Shown one piece after another: positions 44,811 to 57,460 of a stretch of DNA of 64,000 nt. The translations under genes were made by a program, and so were the position numbers. The notes under the pieces are model-generated. The model was not told the origin of the DNA and did no database searches. It worked only from the letters and a program-made list of their open reading frames with translations. Origin of the DNA: Actinacidiphila epipremni (GTDB lineage Bacteria > Actinomycetota > Actinomycetes > Streptomycetales > Streptomycetaceae); contig NZ_JAATEJ010000038.1 of NCBI RefSeq assembly GCF_012034175.1, forward strand, positions 1 through 64,000. Reading direction: 5' to 3'. Each line of letters begins with the position of its first letter. Position 1 is the first letter of the stretch.

Positions 44811-48710
<3,900 letters not shown>

Positions 48711-48795: not shown

Positions 48796-50205
48796 TCAGG
48801 TCTGGCGCATCGGCACGTACTCCTCCGGGGAGAGGCCGAACGTCCAGGCGACGCCCTCGCGGGCGGTGCGGGTGGTCGGCGGGACGCGCAGCCAGTACGT
48901 GCGCGTCGTGCCGTCCGGCTCCGGCGTGGAGTTCAGCACCTCGACCATGACGGTGTCCTCGTCGCCGGTCATGGCGATACGCCACAGCACACCGGTCTCG
49001 TCCCGGTGCTGGGGGACGGCGCCGGACTCGGCGAGGTAGCGGTCGTAGCCGTAGTGCTCCAGCATCACCCGGCGCAGCTCGGCATTCTCCTCGGTGCGGA
49101 TGCGCTCGGGCGTGAGCGTGGCCAGCTCCGCCAGGAACTCGCCGGGCACGGGCATGCCGCGCCACGAGCAGAGGGCGAAGCCGTCCCGGAAGGCCAGCGC
49201 GGGACCGTCCGACCGGTCGAGCCGCCCCGCCTCGTCCCGGTGCAGCTCCGCCGGCCGGTCGCACAGCACGGCCAGCCGCTCGTACGGCCACCACCAGCCG
49301 GCGGCCCGGGCGACCGCGGCGATCCCTTCCAGGGGGCTGCCGGGACCGGCGTCGAAGGCGCTCAGCCAGGCCGCGTCCTGCTGCCCGTGCACGGCGTCGA
49401 GCAGCAGCACCCGGGCAGCACTACGCCGCCGGCCGGCACCCGATCCGCTGGTGGGCGGGGCGCTGATGGCCGATCCGTCGGCGGGCGGGGCGCTGGTGGG
49501 CGATCCGCTCGTGGGCGACCCGTCGGCCCCCGACCCGTCGGTGGGCGGGGTGTCTGTGGCGCTCGGCCAGGGGCCGTTCGCGGGGCGGGGCGCGGGGGCG
49601 GTCGCGGTCGCGTACGCCTCCACCACGCCGGCGGCTATCCGCGAGCTCAGCAACTGCGTGACCTCCCACAGCCGCCCGCCGGTCGCCCCCCAGCGGGCCG
49701 CCCAGCCGAGCGGCCCCAACTCGCCGTGCAGCCGCGCCCGCTCGGCCGCCCACGCCCGGTCCCGCACCTGCTCCCGCACACTCCGCCCCCGCCGCTCGGC
49801 GCCCTCCGCACCGCTGAGCAGCACAAGCGCCCCGAGCGGCGACCCCACCCACACGATCCGCTCCGGCTCCGCGAGCCCCGCCTGCCGGTACGCCAACCGC
49901 ACCCCGGCCTCGGCGGCGCCCCGATCCGCCGCCGCGGTCTCGGCCACGGCGAGCCGCCACTGCTCGACGGGGTCGTGGTCGGAGGCGGCGCCGCCCGGGC
50001 CGGCGCCTGCCGCGGGGTGCGCGCCTGCGGCGCCGGCACCGCCCGCAGGGCGGTCGCCGGTCGCCGGGACTGTGCCGTCGGCACCGCTGCCGCCCGCAGG
50101 GCCGGCGCCGGTCGCGGGGTGCGCGCCCGCAGCGCCGTCCGCCGGGCTCGCGGCGCTTGCGCCCGCGTGGTCGCTGGCGACCACTTCCGTGATGACCTTG
50201 CTCAT
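48796..50205 (-). CDS. DUF6745-like protein with repeat-rich linkers
   Basis: A 469-residue protein of unknown function. The N-terminal 75 residues are glycine/alanine/proline repeats (GAHPATGAGPAG-type). A conserved block follows (DPVEQWRLAVAETAAADR..., RIVWVGSPLGAL), then a second repeat-rich linker (GSPTSGSPTSAPPADGS, about 220-265). The C-terminal half is the best preserved: WPYERLAVLCDRPAELHRDEAGRLDRSDGPALAF and VMLEHYGYDRYL, which resemble the DUF6745 family. No catalytic motif or signal peptide is apparent. It is transcribed in the same direction as the small gene at 50268-50594 and opposite to the STM401x genes. Confidence 0.75.
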   Translation of the reverse strand: MSKVITEVVASDHAGASAASPADGAAGAHPATGAGPAGGSGADGTVPATGDRPAGGAGAAGAHPAAGAGPGGAASDHDPVEQWRLAVAETAAADRGAAEAGVRLAYRQAGLAEPERIVWVGSPLGALVLLSGAEGAERRGRSVREQVRDRAWAAERARLHGELGPLGWAARWGATGGRLWEVTQLLSSRIAAGVVEAYATATAPAPRPANGPWPSATDTPPTDGSGADGSPTSGSPTSAPPADGSAISAPPTSGSGAGRRRSAARVLLLDAVHGQQDAAWLSAFDAGPGSPLEGIAAVARAAGWWWPYERLAVLCDRPAELHRDEAGRLDRSDGPALAFRDGFALCSWRGMPVPGEFLAELATLTPERIRTEENAELRRVMLEHYGYDRYLAESGAVPQHRDETGVLWRIAMTGDEDTVMVEVLNSTPEPDGTTRTYWLRVPPTTRTAREGVAWTFGLSPEEYVPMRQT

Positions 50206-50267: not shown

Positions 50268-50594
50268 TCAGTCCGCGACGATGCGCACCGAGCCAGGCAC
50301 GTACTCGCGTTGGCGGATCACCCGGTACCAACCCTTCGGCAGGGATATCGGGCCGTGCTCCTCGTGGACGACGCGGGCGCCGTCCGGGGTGTGGAGAAGG
50401 GCCGTGCCCGAGGGGCCGGACTCGCGCAGGAGGCGGCCGGGGCCGACCACCGCGTGGGCGTGGCCGGTGACCTCGCCGAGGGCCAGGACCATACGGCCGC
50501 GGCCGTCGCGCGGCTCGGCCGGCAGGTCCTCGTGGCCCGGCGGCAGCGCGGACTCCTCGATCGGCACGATCAGCACATCCCCCTGCCGGTACAC
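50268..50594 (-). CDS. Small conserved protein, function unknown
   Basis: A 108-residue protein beginning VYRQGDVLIVPI, with GEVTGHAHAV in the middle and HEEHGPISLPKGWYRVIRQREY near the end. The several histidines (HAHA, HEEH) suggest a metal site on a small beta-rich fold. GTG 50594 is preceded by GGGAAGGGAG. It lies 62 bases upstream of the DUF6745-like gene and is divergent from the STM4015 gene (228 bases between). It probably forms a pair with the DUF6745-like gene. I cannot assign a function. Confidence 0.72.
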   Translation of the reverse strand: MYRQGDVLIVPIEESALPPGHEDLPAEPRDGRGRMVLALGEVTGHAHAVVGPGRLLRESGPSGTALLHTPDGARVVHEEHGPISLPKGWYRVIRQREYVPGSVRIVAD

Positions 50595-50822
50595 GGCACT
50601 CCCTTCCCGCGATGCCCTGCGCACCGCCGTCGTCACCGACCGTAGGGCCACCCTCTGACAATCGCCCCGACCTGCGGCGATCCCCGTCCGCCCGGGGCTG
50701 CGGGGGCGCTGTCGTACCCCCTTGGTAGAACTGGCCCCATCACATCGGCCCCGCGGCCGGTCCGGGGGGAAGGCGCGTCCGGCGACCAGGGGCATTCCGA
50801 CGCGTCTGGAGCGGGGCAGGAC

Positions 50823-51794
50823 ATGATTTTCTCGGACGGCGACCACCTCAAGGAGTTCGGCGGACTGCCGGTCGTCGACTGGCCGTCGGCGGCGGAGCAG
50901 CAGAAGAAGCAGCCCACCGCCGCGCCCGGCGCCGCCGCCTGGCGGCTGACCGCGGGCACCTGGCAGAACGAGGAGAGCTGGCCCGAGGCGTTCGCCCGGT
51001 TCGCCGCGGCCGTCGACCTCCGCGAGGTCCGGGCGATCGTCGTGGGCGCGTGGCCGGAGGCGTACGACGACGGGCCCGGCGCCGTCGTCGAGGCGCTGCT
51101 CGGCGCCCGCGAGCACCTCACCTCGCTGCGCTCGCTCTTCCTCGGGGACATGATCTCCGAGGAGTGCGAGATCTCCTGGATCCACCAGGGTGACGTCACG
51201 CCGCTGCTCACCGGCTTCCCCGAGCTGGAGCGGCTCGGCATACGCGGCAGCGTGGACCTGGAGCTCCAGCCGGTGCGGCACGAGAGCCTGCGCGAGCTCG
51301 TCATCCAGAGCGGTGGGCTGCCCGCCGAGGTCGTGCGCGCGGTCGCCGCATGCGACTTCCCCGCGCTCACGACGCTCGATCTGTGGCTCGGCACCCCCGA
51401 CTACGGCGGCGACAGCGAGATCGGCGACCTCGCCCCGATCATGGCGGGCACCCGGCTGCCGGCGCTGCGCCATCTGGGCCTGCGCAACAGCGAGATCGAG
51501 GACGAGGTGGCGTCCGCGCTCGCCGCCGCGCCCGTGGTGGCCCGGCTCGATGTGCTGGACCTGTCCATGGGCGTGCTCACCGACGACGGCGCCGTCGCGC
51601 TGCTCGGCGGCCAGCCGCTCACCCACCTCAAGGCGCTGGACCTGCACCACAACTACCTCACGGCGGGCGTCGCCCAGCGGCTGCGGGAGGCGCTGGAGCC
51701 GGCCGGGGTCCGGCTCGAACTCGACAAGGACGACGCGGAGGAGGACACCGACGAGGACGGCTCCGCCTGGCGGTATGTGGCCGTCGGCGAATAG
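50823..51794 (+). CDS. STM4015-family leucine-rich repeat protein
   Basis: A 323-residue protein and the first gene of the STM4015-STM4011 cassette. After an N-terminal domain (about 1-100, with LPVVDWP) come irregular leucine-rich repeats (LERLGIRGSVDLEL, LTTLDLWLG, LRHLGLRNSEI, LDVLDLSMGVL, LKALDLHHNYL). The end is acidic (DKDDAEEDTDEDG). No signal peptide, so it is cytoplasmic. LRR proteins usually bind other proteins; here it may hold a substrate or assemble the enzymes, which is inference. The next gene starts 31 bases downstream behind GGAGGGGAGGGG. Confidence 0.85.
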   Translation: MIFSDGDHLKEFGGLPVVDWPSAAEQQKKQPTAAPGAAAWRLTAGTWQNEESWPEAFARFAAAVDLREVRAIVVGAWPEAYDDGPGAVVEALLGAREHLTSLRSLFLGDMISEECEISWIHQGDVTPLLTGFPELERLGIRGSVDLELQPVRHESLRELVIQSGGLPAEVVRAVAACDFPALTTLDLWLGTPDYGGDSEIGDLAPIMAGTRLPALRHLGLRNSEIEDEVASALAAAPVVARLDVLDLSMGVLTDDGAVALLGGQPLTHLKALDLHHNYLTAGVAQRLREALEPAGVRLELDKDDAEEDTDEDGSAWRYVAVGE

Positions 51795-51825
51795 CCCATA
51801 GGGGGAGTTGGAGGGGAGGGGCGGC

Positions 51826-52971
51826 ATGGGGGAGTACGGGGACGTGCGGGGGCTGCGGCTCGCCGTGGTCGGCAACCCGGACAACCGCCGGGTGCGGCTG
51901 TTCGCGCAGGCGGCGGTCGGTGCGGGGTTCGCGGCGCCGCGGATCGTGCCGTGGCTGGACGTGCTGCGGGGCGGCGGCGCGGACTTCGCGCCCGGGGAGG
52001 TCGTACGGCTCGACTCGCCGGGCGAGCATCCCGAGGTGGACCGGCTGCTGCGCGGCACGGACGACCCGACGCGGGTCGAGGGCGGCGCCCGCTGGTACTC
52101 CGGCTTCACCGCGGCGGTACGGACGCTGCGGGGCGGGGTGCGGCTGGACGACCCGGACGAGCTCGCCGTGCTCTTCGACAAGCGGCGCTGCCATGCGGTG
52201 CTGGAGCGGGCCGGTGTGCCCGTGCCGCAGTCGCCGACCGGCGGCGGGGCGGTGGCGGCGGTGGCGGTGGCGGCGGTGGCGGTGCGCGGCTGGGCGCATC
52301 TGCGGGAGCTGATGCGTGAGCATGGTATGCCGCGGGTTTTCGTCAAGCCGGCGCATGGTTCGTCCGCGTCGGGGGTGGTGGCGCTGGAGACCGCGGGGGG
52401 TGGGCGGTTGCGGGCGACGACGTCGGTGGAGTCCGTGGGTGGGCGGCTCTTCAACTCCCTGCGGGTGCGGCGGATCGGCGCGGAGGCGGAGGTCGCGGCG
52501 TTGGTGGATGCGCTGGCGCCGGACGGGTTGCACGTGGAGCGGTGGCTGCCGAAGGCGTCGGTGGACGGGCGGGTGGTGGACCTGCGGGTGCTGGTGGTGG
52601 CGGGGAGGGCGACGCATGCGGTGGTACGCGGTAGTCGCTGGCCCATGACGAATCTGCACCTCGGCGGTGTTCGTGGGGACTTGGCGGCGGTGCGGGCGGC
52701 GGCGGGGCCTGCGGGGTGGGGGGCGGCGCTGCGGGTGTGCGAGCAGGCCGCGGCGTGCTTTCCCGGCACGCTCGCGGTCGGCGTCGACCTGCTGCCGGCG
52801 CCGGGCTGGCGGGACTTCGCGGTCGCCGAGGTCAACGCTTTCGGGGACCTGCTGCCGCGGTTGGCGGGGCTGCCCGAGGGGCCGGCGGCGGGGCTCGACA
52901 CGTACCAGGCGCAGCTCGCCGCGCTTTCCTCGGCCCGAGCGGTGAGGGGGCAGCGTCATGCGTCGCTCTGA
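51826..52971 (+). CDS. STM4014-family ATP-grasp protein
   Basis: A 381-residue protein of the STM4014 family. The N-terminal part (VVGNPDNRRVRLF, residues about 12-24) resembles a pre-ATP-grasp domain. The ATP-grasp core shows the nucleotide-binding lysine loop VFVKPAHGSSASGVVAL, and the C-terminal EVNAFGDLLPRL should hold the magnesium-binding Glu and Asn. Such enzymes ligate a carboxylate to an amine or thiol through an acyl phosphate. The substrate here is unknown; no tubulin-ligase or RimK-specific features were recognised. ATG 51826. The dispersed palindrome copy B follows 37 bases after the stop. Confidence 0.85.
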   Translation: MGEYGDVRGLRLAVVGNPDNRRVRLFAQAAVGAGFAAPRIVPWLDVLRGGGADFAPGEVVRLDSPGEHPEVDRLLRGTDDPTRVEGGARWYSGFTAAVRTLRGGVRLDDPDELAVLFDKRRCHAVLERAGVPVPQSPTGGGAVAAVAVAAVAVRGWAHLRELMREHGMPRVFVKPAHGSSASGVVALETAGGGRLRATTSVESVGGRLFNSLRVRRIGAEAEVAALVDALAPDGLHVERWLPKASVDGRVVDLRVLVVAGRATHAVVRGSRWPMTNLHLGGVRGDLAAVRAAAGPAGWGAALRVCEQAAACFPGTLAVGVDLLPAPGWRDFAVAEVNAFGDLLPRLAGLPEGPAAGLDTYQAQLAALSSARAVRGQRHASL

Positions 52972-53008
52972 CCTCGTCACTTCGGCCTCGGGGCGTGGAG
53001 CCCTGGCG

Positions 53009-53118
53009 TGGGGTCGGGGCCGCTCCGGGGGGCACCTCCTCGGACTGCGCACATTGACCTCGTCCCTGATCCGGTACCGCCCTGTCGTGCGCAGTCCTGC
53101 GGGGGCACCCCCCGGATC
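53009..53118 (+). repeat. Dispersed palindromic repeat, copy B
   Basis: A 110-base element between the STM4014 and STM4013 genes. It is nearly identical to copy A (31114-31220) except for the central 20 bases, and it reads the same way relative to transcription. It contains GGACTGCGCAC/GTGCGCAGTCC and CCGGGGGG terminal arms. It breaks the tight spacing seen among the other cassette genes. Confidence 0.85.
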
Positions 53119-53197
53119 AGCCCCTTCGGCCGTCACCAACGCGCCGGTCGTGGGCCTTGAGGTCGCGGACGACACAAGACCAGGACCCGAGCCCGAC

Positions 53198-54049
53198 ATG
53201 AACGAGGTCGTCGGGCGGGATGATCTGCTGTTCGTCGTGCTCGACACGCTGCGGTATGACGTCGCCCAGGAGCTTGCCGCCGAGGGGCGGTTGCCGAATC
53301 TCGGGGCGTATTTGCCCGGGGGGCGGTGGGAGCGGCGGCATGCGCCGGGGAGTTTTACGTATGCCTCGCACCAGGCGATGTTCGCCGGGTTCCTGCCGAC
53401 GCCCGCGGCTCCGGGGCCGCATCCGCGGTTGTTCGCGGCGCGGTTCGAGGGGAGTGAGAGCACCGCGGAGGGGACGTGGGTCTTTGACGCGCCCGACCTG
53501 GTCGGGGGGCTGGGGGCGGCCGGCTATCACACCGTGTGCATCGGGGGCGTCGGGTTCTTCAACAAGCGGGGGGCCCTCGGGGGCGTTCTGCCGGGGCTGT
53601 TCGCCGAGAGCCACTGGGAGCCCGGCTTCGGTGTCGCCTCGCCGACGTCGTTCGAGGCGCAGGTGGCCCGGGCGGAGGAGGTCGTCGCGGGGCTGCCGCC
53701 CGAGCGGCGGTTGTTCCTGTACGTCAATGTCGCCGCGCTGCACCAGCCCAACTGGTTCTATCTGCCGGGCGCGACCAAGGCCGCCGGCGACAGCCGGGAG
53801 ACGCACCGGGCCGCGCTGGAGTATGTCGACCGGCACATCGGGCGGCTGTTCGCCGCCGCTCGTTCGCGGCGCCGCTGCTTCACGATCGTCTGCTCCGACC
53901 ACGGCACCGCCTACGGGGACGACGGCTGGACCGGGCACCGCATCGGCCACGAGGCCGTGTGGACCGTGCCCTACGCCCACTTCTTCCTGGAGCCCTTGGA
54001 TTCCCTAGACCATTCTGATTCCTCGGACCACTCGGAGCCTGCCGTATGA
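53198..54049 (+). CDS. STM4013-family alkaline-phosphatase/sulfatase-like hydrolase
   Basis: A 283-residue protein of the STM4013/SEN3800 family within the alkaline phosphatase superfamily. The first metal site is DDLLFVVLDTLRYDVA (Asp16). The nucleophile region is GSFTYASHQAMFAGFLP (about 51-67), similar to the HPSHASMFTG-type motif of sulfatases. The C-terminal metal site is VCSDHGTAYGDDGWTGHRIGHE. No signal peptide is seen, so it should act in the cytoplasm. ATG 53198 is chosen because it opens the conserved region; the frame stays open upstream through the palindrome. The stop overlaps the STM4012 start (ATGA). Confidence 0.82.
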   Translation: MNEVVGRDDLLFVVLDTLRYDVAQELAAEGRLPNLGAYLPGGRWERRHAPGSFTYASHQAMFAGFLPTPAAPGPHPRLFAARFEGSESTAEGTWVFDAPDLVGGLGAAGYHTVCIGGVGFFNKRGALGGVLPGLFAESHWEPGFGVASPTSFEAQVARAEEVVAGLPPERRLFLYVNVAALHQPNWFYLPGATKAAGDSRETHRAALEYVDRHIGRLFAAARSRRRCFTIVCSDHGTAYGDDGWTGHRIGHEAVWTVPYAHFFLEPLDSLDHSDSSDHSEPAV

Positions 54050-55407
54050 GCACTGCCCTTGCCCCCGTCACCCCGGCCGCCAAGGCCCCGGTGCGTCCGT
54101 ATCAGGACTACGTCTACGCCTATCCGCACAAGACCGCCTACCGCCCGCTCCCCGACCGGCCCGCGTTGCGTGACCTGTGGCGGGCGGAGCCCAAGGGTGC
54201 GCTGGCGCTGTATGCGCACATTCCGTTCTGCGAGGTGCGGTGCGGGTTCTGCAACCTCTTCACGCGGGTGGGGGCTCCGGGTGATCTGACGACGCGGTAT
54301 CTGGACGCCCTGGATCGGCAGGCGGTGGCCGTGCGGGAGGCGTTGGGTGGGGAGGAGCCGGTGCGGTTCGGGGCGGCGGCGTTCGGGGGTGGGACGCCGA
54401 CGTTTTTGGAGGCCGGGGAGTTGGAGCGGTTGTGTGACATCGCCGAGCGCCGGATGGGCGCGCCGCTCGGGGCGATTCCGCTGTCGGTCGAGGCGAGTCC
54501 CGCGACCGCGACGGGTGACCGGCTGGACGTGCTGGTGGCGCGGGGTGCGACCCGGATCAGCCTGGGGGTGCAGAGCTTCGTCGAGGACGAGGCTCGGGCG
54601 GCGGTGCGCCCGCAGCGGCGGGCCGATGTGGAGGCCGCGCTCGGGCGGATCCGGGAGGCCGGGGTGCCGGTGCTCAATATCGACCTCATCTACGGTATCG
54701 ACGGCCAGACGCCGGCCAGTTGGCGCGCCTCCCTGGACGCGGCGCTGGCGTGGCGGCCCGAGGAGCTGTACCTCTATCCCTTGTACGCGCGCCCGAAGAC
54801 GCCGCTGCACACCCGTACGGCGGTCGACGACCCGGCGTGGGACGCGCAGCGGCTCGCCCTGTACCGGCAGGGGCGCGACCACCTCCTGGCGAGCGGCTAC
54901 GAGCAGACGTCGATGCGGATGTTCCGCCGCGCGGGCGCCCCGGTGCAGGGGCCCGACGACCATGCGTGCCAGAGCGACGGCATGATCGGCCTCGGCTGCG
55001 GCGCGCGCTCCTACACCTCGGGGCTGCACTATTCGTTCGACTACGCGGTCGGCGCGCCCCAGGTGCGGTCGATCATCGACGCGTACGTGGCCACCGGGGA
55101 CTTCAGCCGGGCTGTGCACGGGCGGCGTATCGAGGGGGACGAGCCGCGCCGCCGGTATCTGCTCCAGTCGCTGCTCCAGGCGGCCGGCATGCCCACCGCC
55201 GACTACGCGGCCCGCTTCGGCAGCACGCCGGAGGCGGACTTCCCCGCAGAGCTCGGCGACTTCGCCGCCCGCGGCTGGCTCGACGAGGCGGCGGGGCCGG
55301 CGTGCCTGCGGCTGAGTCCCGAGGGCCTGGCGCATTCCGACGCGGTCGGCCCCGCGCTGTTCTCCGCGGCGGTCCGGGCCGCGATGGCCGCCTACGAGGC
55401 GAAGTGA
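54046..55407 (+). CDS. STM4012-family radical SAM protein (HemN-like)
   Basis: A 453-residue radical S-adenosylmethionine enzyme. The cluster motif is CEVRCGFC (Cys62, Cys66, Cys69), preceded by YAHIPF as in HemN/HemW proteins. AAFGGGTPTFL, SVEASPATAT, RISLGVQSF and NIDLIYGIDGQT are the following HemN-type blocks. Despite this similarity it belongs to the STM4012 family, not to coproporphyrinogen oxidases. It overlaps STM4013 by four bases and STM4011 by four, implying co-translation. The reaction is unknown. Confidence 0.88.
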   Translation: MSTALAPVTPAAKAPVRPYQDYVYAYPHKTAYRPLPDRPALRDLWRAEPKGALALYAHIPFCEVRCGFCNLFTRVGAPGDLTTRYLDALDRQAVAVREALGGEEPVRFGAAAFGGGTPTFLEAGELERLCDIAERRMGAPLGAIPLSVEASPATATGDRLDVLVARGATRISLGVQSFVEDEARAAVRPQRRADVEAALGRIREAGVPVLNIDLIYGIDGQTPASWRASLDAALAWRPEELYLYPLYARPKTPLHTRTAVDDPAWDAQRLALYRQGRDHLLASGYEQTSMRMFRRAGAPVQGPDDHACQSDGMIGLGCGARSYTSGLHYSFDYAVGAPQVRSIIDAYVATGDFSRAVHGRRIEGDEPRRRYLLQSLLQAAGMPTADYAARFGSTPEADFPAELGDFAARGWLDEAAGPACLRLSPEGLAHSDAVGPALFSAAVRAAMAAYEAK

Positions 55408-56342
55408 CCCGGCCCGTGGACGCCCCCGCCGACCTCACCCTGCTCTACCGCGGCCCCCTCGCGTCCTGCGACTACGACTGCCCCTACTGCCCGTTCGCCA
55501 AGCGGCGCGACACCCCGGAGCAGCTGCGCGCCGACCGGGCCGCCCTGGAGCGCTTCACGGCCTGGGTGCGGGAGCAGCGGGCCGGCTCCCTCGCGGTGCT
55601 CTTCACCCCGTGGGGTGAGGCGCTGACCCGGTCCTGGTACCGGGAGGCGATCGTGCGGCTGTCGCATCTGCCGCAGGTGCGCCGGGTCGCGATCCAGACC
55701 AATCTGAGCGCCCGCACCGGCTGGCTCGCCGCCGCCGACCGCGGCAAGGCGGCCCTGTGGTGCACCTTCCACCCGGGCCAGACGCCGTACGACCGCTTCC
55801 TCGCCCGCACGCGGGAGCTGGCGGCGCTCGGCGTGCGCTTCAGCGTCGGCGTGGTGGGCCTGCCCGAGCACCTGGCGGCGGCCCGGCGGCTGCGGGCGGA
55901 GCTGCCCCGGGAGCACTACCTGTGGGTCAACGCGGCGGAGGGCCGTACCTACACCGACGAGGAGGCCGCGCGGTGGACCGCGCTCGACCCGCTCTTCCCC
56001 TTCAGCCGGCACCCGCACCGCTCGGCGGGGCTGCCGTGCCGCACGGGGGAGTCGGTGGTGTCGGTCGACGGTGAGGGGACGGTGCGGCGCTGCCACTTCG
56101 TGCCGGCGCCGCTCGGCAACCTCTACGACGGCTCGTTCCGCGCCGCCCTGGCCCCGCGGCCGTGCCCGCTCGCGGTGTGCGACTGCCACATCGGGTACGT
56201 CCACCTGGAGTCGCTGCCGCTCTACGACGTCTTCGCCGGCGGTGTCCTGGAGCGCGTCCCGGCCGTGATCACGCCGCCGGGGCCGGCGGACGCGCCACAT
56301 ACCGGCGGCGAGATCCCCGTAAAGCCGTTCCAGCGGGCATGA
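55404..56342 (+). CDS. STM4011-family radical SAM protein
   Basis: A 312-residue radical SAM enzyme with the cluster motif CDYDCPYC (Cys22, Cys26, Cys29). [16 protein letters not shown] and IQTNLSAR follow. The C-terminal part carries additional cysteines ([26 protein letters not shown]) that could bind an auxiliary cluster, as in SPASM-type enzymes that modify peptides; this is inference. The GTG start at 55404 overlaps the preceding stop. It is the last cassette gene, with a DUF1707 gene eight bases downstream. Confidence 0.87.
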
Positions 56343-56349
56343 TAGGAGC

Positions 56350-56811
56350 ATGCTCGCCGGGGATGCGGATCGGGAGAGGGCGGTGAGCGTCCTGAAGGAC
56401 GCGTTCACCGAGGGGCGGCTCACGCAGCCGGAGTACGAGGACCGGGTCGGCCGTGCGTACGGCGCGCGCACGTACGAGCAGCTGGACGCCGTGACGGCGG
56501 ACATCCCGCCGCGCGTGGTGCCGCCGCAGGCGATGGTGCCCTACCCGCCGCCGCCCTACGGGATGATGGCGCCGGCGGTGCGCAGCACCAACGGGCAGGC
56601 GGTCGCGTCGCTGGTGTGCGGGATAGGCGGCCTGATGACGGTGGGCCTGAGCTCGGTGCCGGCGGTCGTGCTGGGCCACATGGCCAAGAGCCGGATCCGG
56701 CAGACGGGGCAGGACGGCGACGGGCTCGCGACCGCGGGGCTGGTGCTCGGCTACATGGCCATCGCCGGCTGGGTGCTGCTGATCCTGCTGGGTGTCGCGG
56801 TCGGCGGCTGA
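56350..56811 (+). CDS. DUF1707 and DUF4190 domain membrane protein
   Basis: A 153-residue protein. The N-terminal DUF1707 domain (about 1-52: [51 protein letters not shown], in pieces) is followed by a proline/tyrosine-rich linker and a C-terminal DUF4190-type region with two membrane helices (about 84-110 and 128-152). Such proteins are common in actinomycetes without known function. Its ATG lies eight bases after the STM4011 stop, so it may be in the same transcript, though it is not a regular part of that cassette. Confidence 0.88.
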
Positions 56812-57088: not shown

Positions 57089-57460
57089 GTGCCTACGATC
57101 CAGCAGCTGGTCCGCAAGGGCCGGCAGGACAAGGTCGAGAAGAACAAGACGCCCGCGCTGAAGGGTTCCCCGCAGCGGCGTGGCGTCTGCACGCGTGTGT
57201 ACACGACCACCCCGAAGAAGCCGAACTCGGCGCTCCGTAAGGTCGCGCGTGTGCGCCTTACCAGCGGCATCGAGGTCACCGCTTACATCCCGGGTGAGGG
57301 CCACAACCTGCAGGAGCACTCGATCGTGCTCGTGCGCGGCGGTCGTGTGAAGGACCTGCCGGGTGTTCGCTACAAGATCATCCGTGGCTCTCTCGACACG
57401 CAGGGCGTCAAGAACCGCAAGCAGGCTCGCAGCCGCTACGGCGCCAAGAAGGAGAAGTAA
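57089..57460 (+). CDS. rpsL: 30S ribosomal protein S12
   Basis: A 123-residue S12. The streptomycin-site lysines Lys43 ([10 protein letters not shown]) and Lys88 ([12 protein letters not shown]) are wild type, so the ribosome should be streptomycin sensitive. It is a decoding-site protein of the small subunit. The GTG start at 57089 follows GGAGATAC. It is the first gene of the str operon; rpsG starts three bases after its stop codon. Confidence 0.98.

Follow-up and report, generated by a model that had tools for sequence, protein, structure and literature searches.

A near-invariant C-terminal glutamate in the leucine-rich-repeat protein STM4015 and its proposed role as carrier or substrate of the STM4011-4015 cassette

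Introduction

What do the enzymes encoded by the STM4011-4015 genes act upon? The question is raised here by a stretch of 64,000 nucleotides from Actinacidiphila epipremni (contig NZ_JAATEJ010000038.1, positions 1 to 64,000 of the forward strand; hereafter the window), in which five complete open reading frames (ORFs) in the order STM4015-4014-4013-4012-4011 lie on the + strand between rpoC and rpsL, at 50823-56342. They encode a leucine-rich-repeat (LRR) protein, an ATP-grasp ligase, an alkaline-phosphatase-type hydrolase and two radical S-adenosylmethionine (SAM) proteins. These families span at least eight phyla, and yet they carry only locus-tag names. We found no description of an STM4011-4015 function in one library of open-access papers, preprints being outside its scope; excerpts of two papers hold passing mentions, of STM4015 in a table row (PMC2784778) and of a sigma-54 site at STM4013.S (PMC3844500). 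The solved STM4015 relative 2RA8 and its protein Q64V53 go unmentioned among the literature matches listed, although papers on 2RA8 may exist. A preliminary description, made from the letters of the window, proposed a modification pathway, and this remains the best reading. We describe here a C-terminal glutamate of STM4015 that is nearly invariant over eight phyla, and propose that STM4015 is probably the carrier or substrate on which the other proteins work.

Results

Alignment of 12 STM4015 proteins from distant phyla leaves the terminal Glu as the sole invariant residue behind the repeat domain. This residue ends 156 of 157 closed STM4015 ORFs from eight phyla (loci L051-L177), including all 91 at loci L098-L177, which were selected by STM4013 rather than by STM4015. 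With one STM4015 taken per locus the count is 119/120, and pairwise identity at the other seven tail positions is 0.24-0.41. Position -2 is Thr, Ser, Ala or Gly (145/157) and position -3 is Val, Leu or Ile (149/157); position -8 is Trp or Tyr in 101 of the 157 tails and Gly, Ser or Asp in 44, and position -6 is Tyr, Phe or Trp in 114. An acidic linker of variable length precedes the tail. As a control, the last residues of STM4014, STM4013, STM4012 and STM4011 vary. Tail matrices trained on two clade groups and tested on the third, with a threshold of at least 6 bits, recover 53/55, 58/60 and 34/42 tails of the unseen group, and match 7, 2 and 4 of 16006 other ORFs. Sixteen of the 17 copies whose profile alignment ends at least six residues early, such that the tail gave no help in retrieval, also end in Glu.

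The constraint on the tail acts on the amino acid, since both Glu codons serve at the terminal position (78 GAA, 78 GAG), all three stops are used, and in 82/157 genes no 4-base start/stop overlap is possible at the stop. Equal codon use and those same 82 genes lead us to reject the possibility that gene overlap forces the Glu. None of the 157 ORFs is extended behind the tail, and fusions do occur elsewhere in the set, with 4014-4013 (L109) and 4013-4012 (L116, L122) sharing one open frame; a Bacteroides STM4015 (L094:6876-7946) carries an N-terminal WGR domain (PF05406), in a plasmid copy with broken STM4013 and STM4012. Stand-alone STM4015 copies (L055, L057, L072, L075-L080) and short C-terminal pieces (L063, L069, L070, L083) end in Glu as well. 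The family has a solved member, PDB 2RA8 (Bacteroides fragilis Q64V53; profile match E 7e-102), whose entry is named 'uncharacterized protein'; it aligns as far as YSYPMITE at residue 354 of 362, and the last eight residues, probably a tag, fall outside the alignment.

The preliminary description had suggested looking for a small conserved peptide near the cassette, and such a peptide exists, but it is the C-terminus of STM4015 itself. A separate small precursor is unneeded: 16006 non-STM4015 ORFs of at least 60 residues gave two tails of at least 8 bits, scored with a matrix built from the same tails, and one of the two (L070) is an STM4015 C-terminal piece by tblastn while the other (L063) reads like one. 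No separate precursor was present among the annotated genes of six records, in which very small ORFs were not searched systematically. Because the last Glu is fixed over eight phyla, STM4015 is more likely a substrate or carrier than the mere binding protein it had been taken for.

In a comparison of a profile of 47 STM4014 sequences with PDB, RimK (3.9e-5) and LysX (1e-4) come first, within a range of 3.9e-5 to 2.4e-4. An AlphaFold2 model from 49 sequences is of high confidence (predicted local distance difference test score, pLDDT, 91.1; predicted template-modelling score, pTM, 0.91), and its Foldseek ranks 1-7 are ArgX-LysW, LysX, LysX/ArgX-LysW, RimK-RpsF and ArgX entries, followed at rank 8 by the graspetide ligase PsnB (7dro). 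With VIA-align the seven best rows are all LysX, ArgX or RimK: ArgX-LysW has Z 23.4 (root-mean-square deviation 2.8, 269 aligned), LysX/ArgX 5k2m 22.7, LysX 22.6 and RimK 21.4-22.2. The predicted structure thus best matches ligases acting on a protein C-terminal glutamate, with other ATP-grasp enzymes close behind. Residues R19, K116, F169, K171, S176, G180, A183, N207, E235, W237, K240, D249, R251, R265, T272-L276, D318, N334, G337 and D338 are invariant in 49/49 STM4014 sequences.

STM4011 contains CxxxCxxC and further conserved C-terminal cysteines in the alignment, and a SPASM Pfam match is over cut-off in L098, below cut-off in L102 and absent from L159. The long STM4011 proteins of Bacillota and Bacteroidota are fused to a HAD phosphatase (PF08282) in all three homologues tested; other Bacillota homologues are short, and in Salmonella a separate Cof-type HAD gene lies directly 3' of STM4011. 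The nearest PDB relatives of STM4012 are HemN 1olt (6.5e-28) and the methyltransferase NocN 9p2u (2.4e-16). The preliminary description had named a true HemN as an example of a match that would refute its proposal, and this alternative fails, with 116 bits on HemN model TIGR00538 against a cut-off of 325; on the HemN, HemW and HutW models, all three functions being rejected, the scores of STM4012 lie at 116-133 bits where the cut-offs are 205-400, compared with 617 on its own family model. A divergent, nearly full-length STM4012-like radical SAM protein (L085:8971-10554, genome G033; 263 bits, below cut-off) has no other cassette gene in the surrounding 19 kb. STM4013 narrowly exceeds the cut-offs of the Pfam models Sulfatase and Phosphodiest, and its nearest PDB relatives are nucleotide pyrophosphatases and sulfatases. 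A lone STM4013-like hydrolase (45% identity) on a Streptomyces albidoflavus plasmid (L089:8720-10883) adjoins a NUDIX gene and a gene annotated lasso peptide biosynthesis B2, a context which hints that a hydrolase of this type also serves a pathway for a ribosomally synthesized and post-translationally modified peptide (RiPP). There are three STM4013-like places on an unannotated Kitasatospora plasmid (L093), with no partner genes found near the one read.

The cassette is present in Actinomycetota, Pseudomonadota, Bacillota, Bacteroidota, Deinococcota, Cyanobacteriota, Verrucomicrobiota and Planctomycetota, Salmonella and many Clostridia included; phyla were assigned from taxonomy lines, record titles and organism names, and many of the records are metagenome bins. 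The genome scan used STM4013 as query with the best 80 of 563 relatives kept, giving 78 loci dominated by Clostridia. The order 4015-4014-4013-4012-4011 is found at 26/26 Streptomycetaceae loci, 8/10 loci of the plasmid collection and 56/78 genome-scan loci, the remaining 22 being split, rearranged, incomplete or cut by contig ends. Two of the ten plasmid loci hold STM4013 alone, and one of the eight ordered ones has a broken STM4013 and STM4012. The members were expected to co-occur, and a mostly fixed order over eight phyla bears this out. Among 61 genomes of the window's family STM4015 is present in 30 and STM4014 exceeds its cut-off in 27, all of them STM4015-positive; in split operons (L166, L170) STM4015 and STM4014 stay together on the opposite strand, apart from 4013-4012-4011. 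The STM4012 family exceeds its cut-off in 5/198 sampled Actinomycetota genomes, all five from the window's family.

Two to six STM4015 copies are held by 22/120 STM4015 loci, with six in tandem in genome G001 and five in G029. The loci with the largest arrays are L066 and L067, and each has a sigma-factor-like ORF (C-terminal helix-turn-helix by eye) between STM4013 and STM4012 (L066:14401-15099, L067:13978-14598). Three Nostoc loci (L162, L163, L168) have four STM4015-like genes each, with repeat domains that are mostly strongly diverged and tails that all end RYxxxxE.

None of 5426 E. coli genomes contains 80% of the Salmonella cassette by megablast, which more diverged copies would escape; short matches occur in 94 E. 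coli genomes, and the eight rows listed are all the HAD hydrolase gene. A phage origin was rejected, as PHROGs match only the DUF6745 and 108-residue proteins (Table 1) among six proteins scanned. Five records of the phage collection, labelled Salmonella or E. coli, match STM4015, each over less than 80% of its length, and a PADLOC scan for anti-phage defence systems with the seven proteins of the unit defined below returned one weak 22-bit partial match, to STM4012.

In the window all five proteins score over their curated NCBIfam cut-offs, which was our criterion of family identity, so that the cassette stands where the preliminary description placed it, between rpoC and rpsL (Table 1). The 4-base overlaps it reported for the last three genes are likewise present (4013/4012 at 54046-54049, 4012/4011 at 55404-55407); the STM4015/STM4014 and STM4014/STM4013 pairs do not overlap, with starts refined by sequence reading to ATG 51826 for STM4014 and ATG 53198 for STM4013. 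It omitted two - strand genes 5' of the cassette, encoding the DUF6745 and 108-residue proteins, and a DUF1707/DUF4190 gene 3' of it.

Table 1. Features of the rpoC-rpsL region of the window.
Feature	Coordinates	Strand	Basis or remark
rpoC	44811-48710		flank of inserted unit
DUF6745 protein, 469 aa, divergent arm, accessory	48796..50205	-	PF20530, 381 bits
108-aa conserved protein (sml)	50268..50594	-	alignment, 25 invariant columns in 18 sequences
Intergenic stretch between divergent arms	50595..50822	.	probable control region
STM4015 leucine-rich-repeat protein, proposed carrier/substrate	50823..51794	+	NF038076, 389 bits (cut-off 275); solved relative 2RA8
STM4015 acidic linker DKDDAEEDTDEDGSA	51723..51767	+	length and sequence vary among homologues
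STM4015 conserved C-terminal tail WRYVAVGE	51768..51791	+	proposed ligation site is the last Glu
Near-invariant Glu, last codon of STM4015	51789-51791	+	codons read from sequence
STM4014 ATP-grasp ligase, best fold matches LysX/ArgX/RimK	51826..52971	+	NF038074, 440 bits (cut-off 175); predicted structure
STM4013 alkaline-phosphatase-superfamily hydrolase	53198..54049	+	NF038075, 421 bits (cut-off 250)
STM4012 HemN-like radical SAM protein (CEVRCGFC)	54046..55407	+	NF006067, 617 bits (cut-off 380)
STM4011 radical SAM protein (CDYDCPYC), SPASM-like C-terminal cysteines	55404..56342	+	NF038073, 411 bits (cut-off 200)
DUF1707/DUF4190 gene	56350-56811		between cassette and rpsL
rpsL	57089-57460		flank of inserted unit

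The rpoC-rpsL interval was compared in 14 congeners, measured between tblastn matches. In nine it spans 0.77-1.0 kb and contains a DUF1707 gene but no gene of the seven-gene unit, and in one (G256, L179) it spans 9.06 kb and holds the same seven genes as the window; it is 3.3 kb in one other, and in the remaining three rpoC is not reached within ~10 kb. Of the congeners with a short interval, G055 and G047 have the cassette at another place in the genome, and neither rpoC nor rpsL was seen in any of 37 Streptomycetaceae stretches examined (16-19 kb, one 13.5 kb). From the interval comparison and these stretches it follows that the location reflects a local insertion rather than a trait of the cassette system, and that the inserted unit is seven genes, the cassette with the divergent DUF6745/108-residue pair, instead of the five-gene set first described. 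The placement in the rpoC-rpsL block therefore stands for the window, but as an insertion common to only one of the 14 congeners. Upstream of rpsL, where rpoC is expected, three congeners have phage-tail-like ORFs (by eye), and one further congener interval has an MFS-transporter-like ORF (L178, L181, L188 and L182 together); in Streptomyces, the rpoC-rpsL gap may receive insertions repeatedly. A consensus scan of the stretch between the divergent arms gave no sigma-70-type or terminator-like site.

The DUF6745 and 108-residue proteins form an accessory module of the cassette. DUF6745 lies near it in 17/26 Streptomycetaceae regions and 5/78 genome-scan loci, and exceeds its cut-off in 25/61 genomes of the family, 23 of which are STM4015-positive; the pair also adjoins the cassettes of three Deinococcus records, Methylobacterium and Nonomuraea. 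It was rejected as an obligate part, as DUF6745 occurs without the cassette and many cassettes have no DUF6745 nearby, and DUF6745 with a relative of the 108-residue protein makes up a two-gene module in stretches lacking cassette genes (L203-L206, L209, L210). The pattern GExTGHxH...HEEH...QREYxP makes the 108-residue protein a probable small metal-binding domain. It has no Pfam match at E <= 0.01, matches PHROG 27831 (function not annotated), and has relatives in Microcystis phages such as LMM01. The DUF6745 model (pLDDT 80, pTM 0.59) has no PDB match at E <= 0.001. The middle of the window's DUF6745 gene (49446-50137) is of low complexity, with short degenerate repeats at 15- to 30-bp and 102-bp spacings.

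Discussion

We favor a model, probable rather than firm, in which STM4015 is the carrier or substrate, STM4014 ligates an amine to its terminal Glu, and the other enzymes act on the product. We infer the acceptor role of the Glu, together with the order of steps, the added group, the later chemistry and the product, as follows. The LRR domain of STM4015 would be the handle that the enzymes recognize, and the acidic linker would present the short tail, with the terminal Glu and its free carboxyl end as the chemical acceptor. STM4014, a ligase of the LysX/RimK type, would use ATP to phosphorylate a carboxyl group of that Glu and couple the activated residue to an amino acid or another small amine through the amino group of the latter. 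STM4011 (SPASM-type), STM4012 (HemN-like) and STM4013 (phosphatase-type) would then act either on the tail or on the group attached to it, and in some Bacillota and Bacteroidota the HAD phosphatase fused to STM4011 would also take part. The outcome could be either a repeat protein that keeps its modification permanently or a small molecule released at a later stage.

The closest parallel is the LysW-LysX/ArgX system, in which, according to excerpts of two papers, the amine is attached to LysW at the gamma-carboxyl of the C-terminal Glu (PMC10433800, PMC9303977); a Streptomyces secondary-metabolite variant of this amino-group carrier system is cited in an excerpt of the second. In both systems the carrier has a C-terminal extension and an acidic stretch and ends in a free Glu, the ligases share one ATP-grasp fold (the best structural match, at fold level only) and, in our proposal, further enzymes then act on the attached group. 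Unlike the small zinc-binding LysW, however, STM4015 is an LRR protein of roughly 280-350 residues without a zinc-binding cysteine domain, and its partners are two radical SAM proteins and an alkaline-phosphatase-type hydrolase. Lacking the zinc domain and the EDWGE ending, the STM4015 system would by analogy work like LysW-LysX without being a member of it. RimK, which modifies the C-terminus of ribosomal protein S6 (RpsF), is likewise an ATP-grasp enzyme of the same fold as STM4014, although the substrate proposed for STM4014 is a dedicated repeat protein of its own operon, with radical SAM partners. Pearlins resemble our proposal in that a carrier peptide bears the small molecule under construction at its C-terminus, with a radical SAM step in one pathway according to an excerpt of PMC9303977; pearlins use a tRNA-dependent PEARL ligase, whereas the seven unit genes give no match to a Pfam family of that kind at E <= 0.01.

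Several observations weigh against this model. One drifted STM4015 copy (L081) ends in Val, and none of the tails listed ends in EDWGE as LysW does (that of the window is WRYVAVGE). Three of the 30 STM4015-positive genomes (G006, G023, G059) have no STM4014 over cut-off, and four of the 78 genome-scan loci have no STM4015, namely L149 and L158, which start at a contig end, L119, which has little upstream sequence, and L148, which holds STM4013 alone. Fixed ends are also found elsewhere, in the 108-residue protein (Asp 27/27) and DUF6745 (Thr 24/27), over fewer lineages. For STM4014, D-Ala-D-Ala ligase (1.1e-4) is level with LysX by sequence; in structure the best row exceeds glutathione synthetase (Z 21.5), D-cycloserine synthetase (21.4) and a carboxyaminoimidazole ribonucleotide synthase (21.4) by no more than 2 in Z, and D-Ala-D-Ala ligases (20.8) by less than 3, such that the predicted fold does not single out a protein-Glu acceptor. 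Its commonest partial Pfam matches are ATPgrasp_ST (40/47) and YheCD and not RimK (PF08443), which is matched by 11/47 at E <= 0.1 (best 1.8e-5) and by the window's STM4014 not at all at that threshold. Our confidence is lowered slightly because other ATP-grasp ligases match nearly as well.

The alternative that fares best, although we regard it as unlikely, is that STM4015 is a docking or scaffold protein, its Glu tail an unmodified tag that binds an enzyme, protease or partner, and the substrate a free metabolite. LRR domains usually bind partners, a variable linker with a short linear motif resembles a docking tail, and both the orphan STM4015 copies in three genomes and the sharing of the STM4014 fold with ligases for small acids are consistent with it. 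However, the best matches of the operon's own ligase act on the C-terminal Glu of proteins, and only the last residue of the tail is near-invariant while the rest drifts, a pattern more in keeping with a reacting group than with a binding motif.

We consider it improbable that the tail is a RiPP-like core, in which radical SAM enzymes would crosslink or alkylate aromatics and STM4014 would close a macrolactam or lactone through the Glu side chain, as in graspetides. NocN, one of the PDB relatives of STM4012, is a RiPP-pathway methyltransferase, PsnB is among the Foldseek matches of STM4014, and aromatics are frequent at positions -8 and -6. Moreover, SPASM-type radical SAM and ATP-grasp enzymes occur together in graspetide loci according to excerpts of PMC8939145, acting, as the enzymes considered here would, on a ribosomal product with acidic residues. 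But the aromatics are not fully conserved, the tail offers no constant Lys, Ser or Thr as a partner beyond the small residues at -2, the five-gene set includes no transporter or protease, and what is conserved is a free C-terminal end and not merely a Glu side chain. A graspetide precursor is a short peptide with side-chain links, whereas STM4015 combines a large folded domain with a C-terminal Glu that is both fixed and free. The excerpts of PMC8939145 contain no mention of LRR or STM40, and those of PMC4431377, on an ATP-grasp clade, no match to the words searched for. Very improbable, finally, is that the Glu is kept for a structural reason, for example to bind a metal or to cap the repeat domain, while STM4014 acts on a small acid unrelated to it: 2RA8 is available as a solved relative and several close STM4014 fold matches act on small acids, but the Glu persists despite varying linker length and in C-terminal fragments of 63-103 residues.

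If the terminal Glu is the acceptor, as we propose, the function of the cassette reduces to a question about the last peptide of one protein. Carrier-protein chemistry would then be extended from small zinc proteins such as LysW to LRR proteins, and joined with radical SAM enzymes. It is possible, though we hold it only tentatively, that these systems make up an undescribed class of biosynthetic or protein-modifying pathway in which dedicated LRR carriers, present in some genomes as tandem arrays of 2 to 6 variants and as separate paralogues at other places, all with the same Glu tail, are served by one LysX/RimK-type ligase and two radical SAM enzymes, different repeat domains addressing one chemical group. 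If so, this would be a bacterial scheme for placing a modified tail on many recognition proteins.

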